Shown: one piece after another, positions 4,043-31,273 of the stretch
How the letters are laid out: each line of letters begins with the position of its first letter
Numbering within the stretch: position 1 is the stretch's first letter
NCBI RefSeq assembly: GCF_014652235.1
Contig: NZ_BMYK01000006.1
Location: 186,001 to 250,000, forward strand
DNA: 64,000 bases
DNA from: Pseudorhodoferax aquiterrae
Lineage (GTDB): Bacteria > Pseudomonadota > Gammaproteobacteria > Burkholderiales > Burkholderiaceae_C
Direction of reading: 5' to 3'
Made by a program: the position numbers and the translations under genes
The notes under the pieces: model-generated
Seen by the model: the letters and a program-made list of their open reading frames with translations, nothing else
Database searches by the model: none
Told to the model about the DNA's origin: nothing

Positions 4043-4233
4043 TGTGGATCGTTCCAGCACAACCTCGTGCTTGTCCACAGAGCGCAGGCCGGAGCGGAAG
4101 TTGTTCGTCGCAGCACCGCGATTTCCCGGGCGGCGGCCCACATGGCTGTGCATCGCGCAAGCCCTTGATCGCGTTGGACAAAGCCGGGTTGCCCACAGGA
4201 ACAAGTCGCCCTCTACTACTACGACTATTCAGA
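4043..4233. other. Origin-like module A: DnaA boxes plus DnaA-trio
   Basis: DnaA-box-like 9-mers occur at 4043-4051 (TGTGGATCG), 4071-4079 (TTGTCCACA), 4134-4142 (CGGCCCACA, degenerate) and 4189-4197 (TTGCCCACA). A short GC-containing spacer follows, then CTACTACTACGACTATT at 4213-4229. Read on the complementary strand 3' to 5', this last tract is GAT-GAT-GAT-GCT-GAT, the DnaA-trio pattern that guides DnaA onto single-stranded origin DNA. An A-rich purine tract follows. Module B at 5827-6040 repeats the same elements at the same spacings. The right end runs up to and just past the 3' end of the leftward lipoprotein gene. Origin function is inferred from architecture. Confidence 0.6.
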
Positions 4234-4749
4234 TCATTCAGAAGATAGACAGGAGACAGCGGCGGCGGCGGGGGGCTGTTGCGTCAGCCACACAGGTCCC
4301 AGCAGCGTGGTGCCCTCAAGATCGCGCAGGGTCAGCTGCAGGCGCAGGCCCTGCCCGTCCGGCAGGCTGGCGACGAGCGTGAGCCGCGCGCTTTGCTCGC
4401 GCAGCACCGTCTGGCCGTCCGCCACGACGAGCCCGCTCCAGCGGCCCGTCAGCTCGGCCTGGCCATCGGCATCGAAGACCCAGCTGCCTTCGTGCACGAA
4501 GCGCTGGCAGGGCAGGCTCAGCTCCACACGCGCCGCGCTGACCGAGAGCACCAGCGCGCCGGTGCACCGGTCGCCGCAAGGCAGGGGCTGCATCGGCTGC
4601 AGGGCCGCGTCCAGCGTGGCGGCGTAGGTGCCTTCGGCGAGCGCGGCACCCGCGTTCGGGCCCGTGCCCGTGCCACCGGTGCCGGGGCCACAGGCCACCA
4701 CAAGGCAGGCGACCCAGAGGCATGCGAGCAGCTCAGCGAATCGTTTCAT
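4234..4749 (-). CDS. Putative lipoprotein, function unknown
   Basis: The product has 171 residues with a lipoprotein signal: hydrophobic residues 7-18 followed by V-V-A-C with the lipidated Cys at residue 20. A Gly/Thr-rich linker (GPGTGGTGTGP) comes next. The mature domain is predicted beta-rich, has a CGDRC pair and a later Cys, and resembles small NlpE/META-like lipoproteins only in general character; I do not recognise a specific family. The ATG at 4749 overlaps the 3' end of the upstream DUF6502 gene by 17 bases, so the two are probably co-translated. The last codons overlap the edge of origin-like module A. Confidence 0.7.
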   Translation of the reverse strand: MKRFAELLACLWVACLVVACGPGTGGTGTGPNAGAALAEGTYAATLDAALQPMQPLPCGDRCTGALVLSVSAARVELSLPCQRFVHEGSWVFDADGQAELTGRWSGLVVADGQTVLREQSARLTLVASLPDGQGLRLQLTLRDLEGTTLLGPVWLTQQPPAAAAVSCLSSE

Positions 4750-5551
4750 GGTCGTCAGCGGCATGGAAGTAGCTGCCGAAGCGCACGCGCTGCGTGCGCT
4801 GCGCCGGGTCGGCATGGGCCTGGTCGTGGTCGAAGCGGGCCTGGGCCTCGCGCATGACCTGGCGGAAGGCCTGGCGCCAGACCCCGGCCGCCAGGGCGTG
4901 CAGTTCGGCGGCGGACGCCGGCGTCAGCTCGTCCACGAACACGGCCTGCTCCAGGAAGTTCTGCCCGCCGTCGACGTTGGCGCAGGCCGCCGCCAGGTGG
5001 TCGTGCACGTTGTCCCCGAGCAGCTGCACCATCTCGGCGAAACCCTGGCGCGGCACGAAGCCCGGCGCAAGCAGGCGCACGCCCTGCCCGCCCTCCTCGG
5101 CCAGGCCCAGGCGCAGCAGTTCGTCGAGCACGGCGCGCGGCCGCACATCGGTGCTGATGGCCGCGACCAGCGCGTCGAAGCTGGGGCCTTGGGACTGGCG
5201 CGGCAGCACCAGCGGCACGCCCTCGTCGTCGACGAAGGCTACGTCGCTGAGCCAGCGCGCCACCACCTGGCTGGCCATGTTCATGGCCGCGTGCGGCGCG
5301 GCCTCGCCGGCGGCGGCACGCAATTGCCGCACATCACGGCGGTGGACGCCCGACAGCAGGCTCAGTGCGCTGTCGGTGGGCTTTTGGCCGCTGGCGGCCA
5401 ACTCGTCCTGAGCCGCCTGCAGGAACACCTGCTTGAGCGCTGCCGCGAAGCTGGGATAGGCCACGCCATGCCGCAGCAGCAGCCGCACCGCGGGCCGCAG
5501 CAGGCGCAGCACCGAAGCCAGCACGACGGCGGACCGGGAAGGGGCAGACAT
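4733..5551 (-). CDS. DUF6502 family protein
   Basis: The product has 272 residues. It begins with a basic, hydrophobic segment (SVLRLLRPAVRLLLRHGVAYPSF typing, residues about 12-35). It then has a predicted winged-helix-like region with GQKPTDSALSLLSGVHRRDV, a domain containing the ARWLSDVAF segment, and a helical C-terminal half. This matches the uncharacterised DUF6502 family of proteobacteria as I know it. The reading SALSLLSGVHRRDV is helix-turn-helix-like, so DNA binding is possible but not shown. It lies between two origin-like modules, is divergent from a small ORF at 5576 and overlaps the lipoprotein gene downstream. Any role at the origin would be inference from position only. Confidence 0.7.
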   Translation of the reverse strand: MSAPSRSAVVLASVLRLLRPAVRLLLRHGVAYPSFAAALKQVFLQAAQDELAASGQKPTDSALSLLSGVHRRDVRQLRAAAGEAAPHAAMNMASQVVARWLSDVAFVDDEGVPLVLPRQSQGPSFDALVAAISTDVRPRAVLDELLRLGLAEEGGQGVRLLAPGFVPRQGFAEMVQLLGDNVHDHLAAACANVDGGQNFLEQAVFVDELTPASAAELHALAAGVWRQAFRQVMREAQARFDHDQAHADPAQRTQRVRFGSYFHAADDHETIR

Positions 5552-5575
5552 TTCGTGGGATATTATTCCACGCAC

Positions 5576-5815
5576 ATGAAGAGATGGACCCTGGAAAGCC
5601 CAGGTGCCGGCATCGCGCTGCACCTGCTGCTGCTCTCGCTCGTGGTGGCCGCTGTGCAGTACAGCGAGCACCGGGCCGCGTCCATCCCGGCCGCGGCACC
5701 CTCGCCGCCCCAGACGCGCCCGGAGCCCATGCGGGCGCAGCAGCAGGCGCGCGACCCCGCCGGGCAGGCCGTGCCCGTCGCCGAAGCGGCCCTGCCCCGC
5801 CATCCCGCCCCCTGA
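5576..5815 (+). CDS. Possible small single-pass membrane protein
   Basis: A 79-codon frame starts with ATG 24 bases from the divergent DUF6502 start. Residues about 11-28 form one hydrophobic segment (GIALHLLLLSLVVAAVQY), followed by a Pro/Ala/Gln-rich tail. The organisation suits a short membrane-anchored protein. However, there is no strong ribosome-binding site and the tail is of low complexity, so it may not be expressed. The region between the two starts holds the inverted repeat CGTGG...CCACG around an AT-rich centre (5554-5572), a possible shared operator. Confidence 0.35.
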   Translation: MKRWTLESPGAGIALHLLLLSLVVAAVQYSEHRAASIPAAAPSPPQTRPEPMRAQQQARDPAGQAVPVAEAALPRHPAP

Positions 5816-5826
5816 ACTAACAACCG

Positions 5827-6040
5827 TGTGGATAGTTCCGGCACAAGCCGGTGCTTGTCCACAGTCGCGCGCCCGGCGCGCGACTTGTTCATGCCCGCGC
5901 GACAGCGCGAAAGCGCGCCCGCCCACAGCCACGGCGGTGCCGCAAGTGCGCGGCACGGCTGGAAAAAAGACGGTTGTCCACAGCCGCGGGCGCCCTCTAC
6001 TACTACGACTATTGAGAGATAGAGAAGATAGAAAAGGGAT
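5827..6040. other. Origin-like module B: DnaA boxes plus DnaA-trio
   Basis: This is a second copy of the module at 4043. DnaA-box-like sites lie at 5827-5835 (TGTGGATAG), 5855-5863 (TTGTCCACA), 5919-5927 (CCGCCCACA, degenerate) and 5974-5982 (TTGTCCACA). The DnaA-trio-like CTACTACTACGACTATT is at 5997-6013, followed by a purine-rich, AT-leaning tract to about 6040. Offsets from the first box are 28, 92, 147 and 170 bases, against 28, 91, 146 and 170 in module A. Both modules are in the same orientation and 1.78 kb apart. The conserved geometry with diverged spacer sequence argues for selection on the sites. This copy is fully intergenic. Confidence 0.65.
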
Positions 6041-29738: not shown

Positions 29739-31133
29739 TCATCCCTTCAGCGTCTGTTCCAGCACGTGCAGTTGCTGGTTCAGCTCGGCCAGCTGCTGGC
29801 GTTCGCCGCCGATCTTGCGCACGGCATGCAGCACGGTGGTGTGGTCGCGGCCGCCGAAGAGCTCGCCGATCTCGGGCAGGCTCTTCTGCGTGAGTTCCTT
29901 GGCCAGGTACATCGCGATCTGGCGCGGCCGCGCGATGCTGGCCGGGCGCTTCTTGCTGTACATGTCGGCGACCTTGATCTTGTAGTAGTCGGCCACCGTC
30001 TTCTGGATGTTCTCCACGCTGATCTGGCGGTTCTGGATCGACAGCAGGTCGCGCAGCGCCTCGCGGGCCAGCTGGATCGAGATCTCCTTCTGGTTGAAGC
30101 GCGAATAGGCCAGGATCTTGCGCAGCGCGCCTTCGAGCTCGCGCACGTTGGAGCGCACGTTCTTGGCGACGAAGAAGGCCACTTCCTCGGGCATCTCGGT
30201 GCCTTCGGAGATCGACTTGTTGATCAGGATGGCCACGCGCATCTCGAGCTCGGGCGGCTCGATGGCCACCGTGAGGCCGGAGTCGAAACGCGACACCAGG
30301 CGCTCGTGGATGTCCGGCAGACCCTTGGGATAGGTGTCCGAGGTCATCACGATGTGGCTCTTCTTGGCCAGCAGGGCCTCGAACGCGTTGAAGAACTCTT
30401 CCTGCGTGCGGTCCTTGTTGGCGAAGAACTGCACGTCGTCGATCAGCAGCAGATCGAGCGAGTGGTAGCGCTCCTTGAACTCGTCGAAGGTCTTGCGCTG
30501 GTAGGACTTGACCACATCCGAGACGAACTGCTCCGCATGGATGTAGAGAACTTTGGCGCCGGGCTTCTCCTCGAGCAGCCGGTTGCCCACGGCGTGCATC
30601 AAGTGCGTCTTGCCCAGGCCCACGCCGCCGTAGATGAACAAGGGGTTGTAGAGCTGGCCCGGCGAGCCCGCCACGTGCATGGCCGCCGCGCGCGCCATGC
30701 GGTTCGCCGTGCCCTCCACCAGGGTGGAAAACGTGAGGGCCGAATTGAGGCGGTTCTTGGGTGGACCAGGGGAGATTTCCTCGCCCAGATCGGCCGGCTC
30801 GGACTGCGCGCTGATCTCGCGCGCCAGCTGCAAAGGCGTAAGCCTGGCAACGTTTTCCCGCGGAGTGATGGCTAACTCGAGCTGGATGGGCTGGCCGTAG
30901 AGGTTCTCCAGCATCTGGGTGATACGGCCACTGTATTGCGCGCGGATCCAGTCGAGCTTGAAGCGGTTGGCCACGTACACCGTGACCTTGCTGAAATCAC
31001 CCGTCACCTGGGCCGTCAAGGGCTTGATCCAGGTGTTGAACTGTTGTTCTGGAAGTTCCTGGGCAAGCTGCTCGATGCAGGCCTGCCACAGGCTGTCGCC
31101 GGCGGCACCGCTGGCATGGTTCCCCTCGATCAT
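29739..31133 (-). CDS. dnaA: Chromosomal replication initiator DnaA
   Basis: The 464-residue initiator that binds DnaA boxes and opens the origin. Domain I (residues 1-85; [19 protein letters not shown]) mediates self- and helicase contacts, and a short linker follows. The AAA+ domain has Walker [10 protein letters not shown] near residue 170 and Walker [10 protein letters not shown]. Domain IV holds the DNA-binding signature [15 protein letters not shown]. The linker is short for the family. The start at 31133 is preceded by AGGAG at a slightly long distance. Two DnaA boxes lie just upstream of the start, suggesting autoregulation. Confidence 0.98.
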
Positions 31134-31148
31134 GCGCCGCCCAGCTCC

Positions 31149-31207
31149 TGTGGATAAATGTTTTTTTGAAGCACCCGGCATTCTAGGTGTGCGGGTAGTT
31201 GTCCACA
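31149..31207. promoter_or_regulatory. Pair of DnaA boxes upstream of dnaA
   Basis: A consensus box TGTGGATAA at 31149-31157 and an inverted TTGTCCACA at 31199-31207 lie within 75 bases of the dnaA start. A T-rich run separates them. No DnaA-trio-like tract accompanies them, which fits dnaA autoregulation at least as well as origin function. The rest of 31134-31507 shows only the rpmH promoter. Confidence 0.75.
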
Positions 31208-31273
31208 AGCTGAAAGGGCATGTGGCGCGGCCGACACAGAAGTGCATTGAACCCTTGCCAAGCAGGCCCGTGC

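Follow-up and report, generated by a model that had tools for sequence, protein, structure and literature searches.

A stretch of 64,000 nucleotides of the Pseudorhodoferax aquiterrae genome (C6:186001-250000, hereafter the window) carries what look like two complete chromosomal replication origin (oriC) modules, each made of DnaA boxes, a DnaA-trio and an AT-rich stretch, at 4043-4256 (module 1) and 5827-6040 (module 2). As a working rule a bacterial chromosome has a single origin, and we know of few natural exceptions; on this chromosome more than one complete oriC module, namely two, was found. We think it probable, though well short of certain, that these are two oriC copies of which module 2 is the main start of replication, and that module 1 has long been maintained because it aids DnaA assembly at module 2 or offers an alternative start. 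The genome (7.1 Mb) is available as an assembly of 94 contigs, and the DNA of the window has a GC content of 68%. Two duplicated origin-like modules had been proposed in a preliminary description of the window, and this was borne out, as boxes, trio and AT-rich element are present in both and both are matched by a nucleotide profile of the module; the E-values given below for these two matches are not independent, because both modules were in the profile seed.

4043-4256, plus strand: module 1, upstream oriC copy, from sequence and profile match (C6:190027-190247, E 2.4e-36)
4043-4051, minus strand: putative DnaA box of module 1, TGTGGATCG
4071-4079, plus strand: putative DnaA box of module 1, TTGTCCACA
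4101-4106: TTGTTC of module 1
4138-4142: CCACA of module 1
4189-4197, plus strand: putative DnaA box of module 1, TTGCCCACA
4213-4229, plus strand: DnaA-trio 17-mer of module 1, CTACTACTACGACTATT, exact match
Beyond the trio, to about 4256: AT-rich stretch of module 1
5827-6040, plus strand: module 2, downstream oriC copy and predicted main start, from sequence and profile match (C6:191817-192035, E 9.1e-38)
5827-5835, minus strand: putative DnaA box of module 2, TGTGGATAG
5855-5863, plus strand: putative DnaA box of module 2, TTGTCCACA
5885-5890: TTGTTC of module 2
5923-5927: CCACA of module 2
5974-5982, plus strand: putative DnaA box of module 2, TTGTCCACA
5997-6013, plus strand: DnaA-trio 17-mer of module 2, CTACTACTACGACTATT, exact match
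Beyond the trio, to about 6040: AT-rich stretch of module 2

Both modules lie on the same strand and follow one order: first a DnaA box on the minus strand and, 28 bp further on, one on the plus strand, then TTGTTC, CCACA, a second plus-strand box, a spacer (15 bp in copy 1, 14 bp in copy 2), the trio and the AT-rich stretch, with boxes through trio occupying 4043-4229 and 5827-6013. On direct reading, the offsets first reported for the shared elements (0, 28, 91/92, 146/147 and 170) and the common 17-mer were right, and so was the polarity of the trio, whose repeats read CTACTACTA on the box strand. The four box-like 9-mers described for each module were correctly placed but are uneven in quality: four of the eight sites, including all three main boxes of module 2, have at most one mismatch from TTATCCACA, two further boxes of module 1 have two mismatches each, and at offset 91/92 both modules have a weak site whose match is limited to the CCACA end. 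Easily melted DNA adjoins the trio in both cases. Of 63,965 overlapping 35-bp segments of the 64 kb, those of the two AT-rich stretches have the lowest stability of all separate sites, with starts at 6001 (the lowest) and 4213 (the second). The 17-mer CTACTACTACGACTATT occurs exactly twice in the 7.1-Mb genome, where the reversed-pattern control had no occurrence, and at E ≤ 1e-5 the two modules are the sole profile matches in the whole genome; the 17-mer count with its control and this uniqueness were the grounds for rejecting a chance cluster of boxes. A duplication introduced during assembly was likewise rejected, as in Pseudorhodoferax about 40% of sites on average are unlike between the copies of a genome.

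The profile was derived from 20 seed regions around trio matches in 19 relatives, together with genome G295 and P. aquiterrae, and recovered 36 modules of common layout from 21 genomes; from these a sequence-only covariance model was built and used for the family (299 genomes, E ≤ 0.01), order (120 genomes, E ≤ 0.001) and genome searches, with a re-test at E ≤ 1e-5. Matches in genomes outside the seed are independent of it. As the 36 seed modules were drawn from regions with a near-exact trio, the profile is biased toward that trio and the copy numbers are probably lower bounds. Matches were obtained in 284 of the 299 genomes of the family, and we take the module to be the oriC module of this family; order-wide, 33 of 120 genomes matched, mostly weakly, and three of these 33 belong to the family. 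At least two matches were present in 95/299 family genomes, and at the stricter threshold two or more copies were retained in 20 of 21 genomes, G175 dropping to one. Strong-copy counts and pair spacing were taken from the 150 strongest family matches: at least 45 of the 299 genomes have two strong copies, and among the matches listed 41 of 45 pairs are on the same strand (spacing 325-10205 bp, median 1790) and four on opposite strands. The copies of Diaphorobacter nitroreducens (G010) are separated by 9 kb. Three copies were seen in G003, G004, G120 and the Comamonadaceae metagenome record L115. Two or three copies at E ≤ 1e-5 were found in each of the 19 multi-copy genomes that were compared in detail; they lie on a single contig in 18 genomes and on one draft contig in P. 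aquiterrae. A scan of named genomes with the box-trio pattern returned 64 stretches (up to 8 kb), 50 of which contain the module and 31 of these at least two modules; the module-bearing genera include Acidovorax, Paracidovorax, Paenacidovorax, Delftia, Pseudorhodoferax, Hydrogenophaga, Malikia, Diaphorobacter and Polaromonas. The remaining 14 of the 64 stretches, mainly from clostridial records, had no profile match.

The conservation of the copies was compared in four groups of pairs, namely Pseudorhodoferax (5), Acidovorax with near relatives (17), Delftia/Comamonas-like genomes (8, one genome entered twice) and Diaphorobacter-like genomes (6). In all four, copy 1 is closer to copy 1 and copy 2 to copy 2 of other genomes than the two copies are to each other within one genome, with differences per site of 0.287 (copy 1), 0.309 (copy 2) and 0.439 (within genomes) in Acidovorax and 0.321, 0.170 and 0.398, respectively, in Pseudorhodoferax. 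Judged from these sequence comparisons, the two copies are orthologous lineages within genera, and recent duplication or gene conversion within genera was rejected on the same grounds. Over all 42 pairs, like copies were not closer (0.437 for copy 1 and 0.425 for copy 2 vs. 0.440 within genomes), and because their closeness vanishes at this scale orthology is claimed within genera and not across them. Boxes and trio have identities of 0.86-0.98 vs. 0.51-0.80 in the other module columns, and they came out ahead of all 5000 random column sets in every one of eight tests (both copies, four groups); copy 1 keeps a trio identity of 0.88-0.95 across the groups, and boxes and trio are better conserved in copy 2 than in copy 1 in 4/4 groups. 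Part of this conservation is due to the selection of loci, since an exact box-trio pattern had picked out each named locus through one or more of its copies (the remaining copies came from the profile only), which inflates the conservation of the pattern-found copy. Of 116 modules, some of them from genomes that were entered twice, 95 have a spacer of 14 bp and 21 one of 15 bp; a 15-bp spacer need not disable a module, because it also occurs in 12 of 26 single copies.

For the site at which replication starts we turned to strand skew, pooling eight genomes with 200-400 kb around the modules, P. aquiterrae included, after alignment at the end of the last module and averaging. Relative to the last-module end, the pooled minimum falls at -29 bp for cumulative GC skew and at +169 bp for keto skew, and when single genomes were left out the minima of both measures stayed within 170 bp. 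With random anchors placed within 55 kb, no minimum came within 200 bp in 400 sets, nor did any set reach the same depth, for either measure. When the curves were anchored on module 1, the pooled minimum fell 4.0-4.1 kb downstream. Of 11 segments between modules, 10 have a negative GC skew, like the left arm, and the other has a skew of zero (three segments shorter than 200 bp were excluded). In Leaf274, a Pseudorhodoferax outside the pool, the slope changes at the modules, with the GC skew going from -0.014 to -0.001 over 40 kb, and in G295 a change in KOPS-like octamers at 26-36 kb lies nearer to the modules (42-46 kb) than to dnaA (0). Sites resembling parS were found upstream of the modules, at distances of roughly 14-50 kb, in 8/8 genomes. 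We read the skew as suggesting that replication starts mostly at the last copy in the trio direction.

Several observations weigh against this interpretation. The pooled depth is nearly equal at the two anchors (GC 916 for module 1 vs. 951 for module 2), so that module 2 is favoured over module 1 by the position of the minimum and not by its depth. The distance from a single-genome GC minimum to the nearest module start is 17, 119 or 162 bp in three genomes, 5.5 or 6.5 kb in two, and 34, 84 or 93 kb in the other three, the values of 34 and 93 kb belonging to G003 and G190 and that of 84 kb to the P. aquiterrae contig (323 kb); the skew comparison of the modules with the dnaA-rpmH region, put forward as a check in the preliminary description, gave a minimum at neither in P. 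aquiterrae itself and one at module 2 in the eight-genome pool. When V-shaped curves were fitted over 400 kb, the optima for G289, G004 and G295 were broad, with best points at 16, -94 and -27 kb, and in 3/3 dnaA (0 kb) fits better than the modules (40-69 kb). In Leaf274 the 120-kb skew minimum is at the edge, with none at the modules. The pooled curve was, moreover, chosen as main skew evidence after the single curves had been seen, and was kept as such because the random-anchor control was available for it. In P. aquiterrae, the cumulative GC skew of the 64-kb window and of the 323-kb contig did not locate an origin, third-position skew and gene strand in the contig gave a weak signal, and KOPS-like octamers were uninformative. 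The GC skew of contig C6 is negative on both sides of the modules, unlike in most relatives tested, and a rearrangement near the origin is one possibility for the cause.

Under the explanation that we favour, DnaA would bind the double-stranded boxes of a module, grow from the last box past the 14-15 bp spacer to reach the single-stranded trio, and melt the AT-rich stretch beyond it. Such an extension from the trio-proximal box onto the trio strand is assumed by analogy with Bacillus subtilis and Helicobacter pylori, as set out in the excerpted texts of PMC8287927 and PMC8235120. Bidirectional replication would then start mainly at the downstream copy (5827-6040), and the upstream copy (4043-4256) would help DnaA to assemble at copy 2 or act as an alternative start; a role of copy 1 in regulation may also be considered.

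That both copies instead fire independently and at similar rates, so that there are two (in some relatives three) alternative starts a few kb apart, appears unlikely. Each copy does have its own boxes, spacer, trio and AT-rich stretch, both are conserved, and skew is an evolutionary average in which occasional use of a copy would not show. Equal use, however, predicts an intermediate skew between the copies, and for this reason the left-arm skew of 10/11 inter-module segments counts against it, as does the pooled minimum at the last copy, 4.0 kb past the end of the first. We give slightly less credence still to copy 2 being the sole origin and copy 1 an origin-derived DnaA-binding site for regulation, working by titration or reactivation in the manner of datA or DARS. 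The weaker boxes of copy 1 in P. aquiterrae (TGTGGATCG, TTGCCCACA) and its slightly lower box and trio conservation in 4/4 groups would fit such a role; titration, though, needs neither a trio, which copy 1 has kept at an identity of 0.88-0.95, nor an AT-rich stretch, which copy 1 also has, at the site that comes second in the window for low stability, and datA and DARS are not known to carry trios.

The preferred reading, with the main start at module 2, places the origin at a distance from dnaA, which is found in the same window.

29739-31247, minus strand: dnaA (longest frame), matching DnaA of 38 other genomes
31149-31157 and 31199-31207: DnaA boxes upstream of the probable dnaA start

The true start of dnaA is probably near 31133, and the boxes upstream of it, to which a pair upstream of dnaA in G295 is similar, probably serve dnaA autoregulation rather than an origin. 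It is very improbable that the true origin lies at dnaA (31 kb) and that the modules are relics or chance box clusters: this could invoke the two boxes just upstream of dnaA and the V-shaped fits of G289, G004 and G295, which are better at dnaA (in G289 and G295 within 6-7% of the best fit), but the module profile has no match at dnaA of P. aquiterrae, in G289, G004 and G295 the cumulative minimum is 36-44 kb away from dnaA, against 17 bp, 162 bp and 5.5 kb away from a module, and boxes and trio show no decay. The modules are 24-26 kb from the dnaA frame, so their remoteness had been correctly described; the accompanying expectation that a remote two-part origin would be unusual for this group did not hold, in view of the at least 45 of 299 genomes with two strong copies and of where the module sits in the 39 genomes compared (36 on a single contig, two on two contigs, and the draft of P. 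aquiterrae), with at least 17 kb between module and dnaA in 9/20 single-copy and 16/19 multi-copy genomes. The classical position of oriC is directly 3' of dnaA. Ten of the 20 single-copy genomes have the module there, in nine it is more than 30 kb off, and G254 is undecidable because its module lies near a contig end. The multi-copy exceptions are G174, with both copies just 3' of dnaA, G272, with one beside dnaA and one 29 kb off, and G121, with one copy 14.5 kb from dnaA and one near a contig end. The module has often been relocated away from the classical dnaA-side arrangement.

With the basal unwinding system of Richardson, Pelliciari, Murray and colleagues, the P. aquiterrae modules share the box, the short spacer, the 3'-GAT trio and the AT-rich stretch. 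The published trio search, as excerpted, allowed spacers of up to 16 bp, with 13 the commonest value, and the 14-15 bp spacers of P. aquiterrae are within this maximum and near 13 (PMC8287927). Unlike an oriC of that type, the multi-copy genomes of the family have two or three complete units per chromosome; the same survey, according to the excerpt, would not report a second copy because one candidate was kept per genome (PMC8287927). There is also a likeness to the bipartite oriC of B. subtilis and H. pylori, in which, in the portions of the two accounts used here, two DnaA-box clusters are parted by gene-sized DNA (PMC4285127, PMC8235120). The bipartite origins in the first of these excerpts have the unwinding element in one subregion (PMC4285127), whereas both P. 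aquiterrae modules hold a trio and an AT-rich stretch; their spacer is usually dnaA, whereas here it consists of a DUF6502 gene and a lipoprotein-like gene, with dnaA 24 kb off; and the copies in the family are paralogous whole modules spaced by about 0.3 to 10 kb. Of the two earlier proposals, a bipartite oriC or an origin plus a duplicate, origin and duplication were borne out, and from the described bipartite type the pair departs in the features just given. Two oriC-like regions per chromosome have likewise been listed as putative double origins in Ralstonia pickettii 12D, Ochrobactrum anthropi, Dehalobacter sp. CF and Acidaminococcus fermentans, with Pseudomonas aeruginosa cited; three of these pairs are 150-882 kb apart, and the second origin of A. 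fermentans is beside a second dnaA (PMC4403523). The copies in the family differ from these in being close, same-stranded (41/45 pairs among the matches listed), present in many genera and orthologous within genera. An origin remote from dnaA is shared with Cupriavidus metallidurans, on whose chromosome 1 the skew switch and a 213-nt region holding three perfect DnaA boxes are about 90 kb away from dnaA; the excerpted text describes a single box cluster there and mentions no tandem copy (PMC2864759). Likewise in excerpt, the exact origin of the main chromosome of Burkholderia cenocepacia is called unclear (PMC4948915), several oriCs are said to be possible on one chromosome in Ori-Finder 2022 (PMC10225481), and two origins are reported on a single-chromosome Vibrio cholerae (PMC6284228). 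No description of tandem complete oriC modules in the family was recognised among the papers listed by searches of open-access literature, most subscription journals being outside their scope.

The genes between the P. aquiterrae modules are context, outside the origin.

4234-4749, minus strand: lipoprotein-like frame between the copies
4733-5572, minus strand: DUF6502 gene between the copies (Pfam PF20112)

A Pfam search of the 4234-4749 frame matched no family. A plus-strand frame at 5577-5815 (about 79 codons, hydrophobic start), which is the end of a longer frame, lies between DUF6502 and module 2. The enclosure of a DUF6502 and a lipoprotein gene, pointed out earlier, is correct for P. 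aquiterrae but not general: among the five Pseudorhodoferax compared, both are present between the copies in three (P. aquiterrae, G253 and P. soli), G069 keeps a lipoprotein-like match only, and Leaf274 has neither gene. G253, placed in the genus of P. aquiterrae, has sequence in common with Pseudorhodoferax sp. Leaf265 (L124), in agreement with Pseudorhodoferax as the genus. DUF6502 was accordingly rejected as an origin component, being absent between the Leaf274 copies. Searches with the proteins of the window found LTXXQ-family or PagL genes near the modules in many regions, though not all. In G003 and L115 one copy (A) is upstream of LTXXQ and two (B, C) are downstream, in Acidovorax, Delftia and Pseudorhodoferax both copies are downstream, and in Diaphorobacter-like genomes there is one copy on each side. 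This gene order suggests three ancestral module slots with differential loss, for which the tree is too weak to serve as proof. In a FastTree tree of the 116 modules (some genomes twice), the twelve Pseudorhodoferax modules group with a support of 0.91, which suggests a separate duplication in this genus; gene order points instead to shared slots.

Some further matches stand apart. In G243, G162, G044 and G159 the modules are on opposite strands, 0.3 to 46 kb apart, and form a natural contrast to the tandem arrangement. Tandem module-like matches were also seen in another family of the order, three at G353:C1:1853626-1855249 and two at G305:C1:5138110-5138721. The Butyricicoccus records L070, L086, L097, L099 and L104 matched the box-trio pattern and not the module profile, and are possibly clostridial unwinding elements of similar sequence. 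Records L072, L089 and L103, labelled Pantoea sp. 18069 and Chitinophaga pinensis, carry a Comamonadaceae-type module; their labels are probably wrong or the assemblies mixed.

Surveys that keep one candidate origin per genome miss the second copy. Nature provides dozens of examples within this one family, with one, two or three complete modules whose spacing is known and which lie beside dnaA or remote from it. With these it can be tested why origins are split, whether a second unwinding site is put to use, has a regulatory role or is redundant, and how an origin comes to leave dnaA. It is conceivable, although we rather doubt it, that many genera of the family have two or three tandem competent origins, mostly in the same direction and long kept as distinct lineages, of which more than one is used, alternately or depending on conditions. 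If so, natural multi-origin bacterial chromosomes would be common rather than exceptional.

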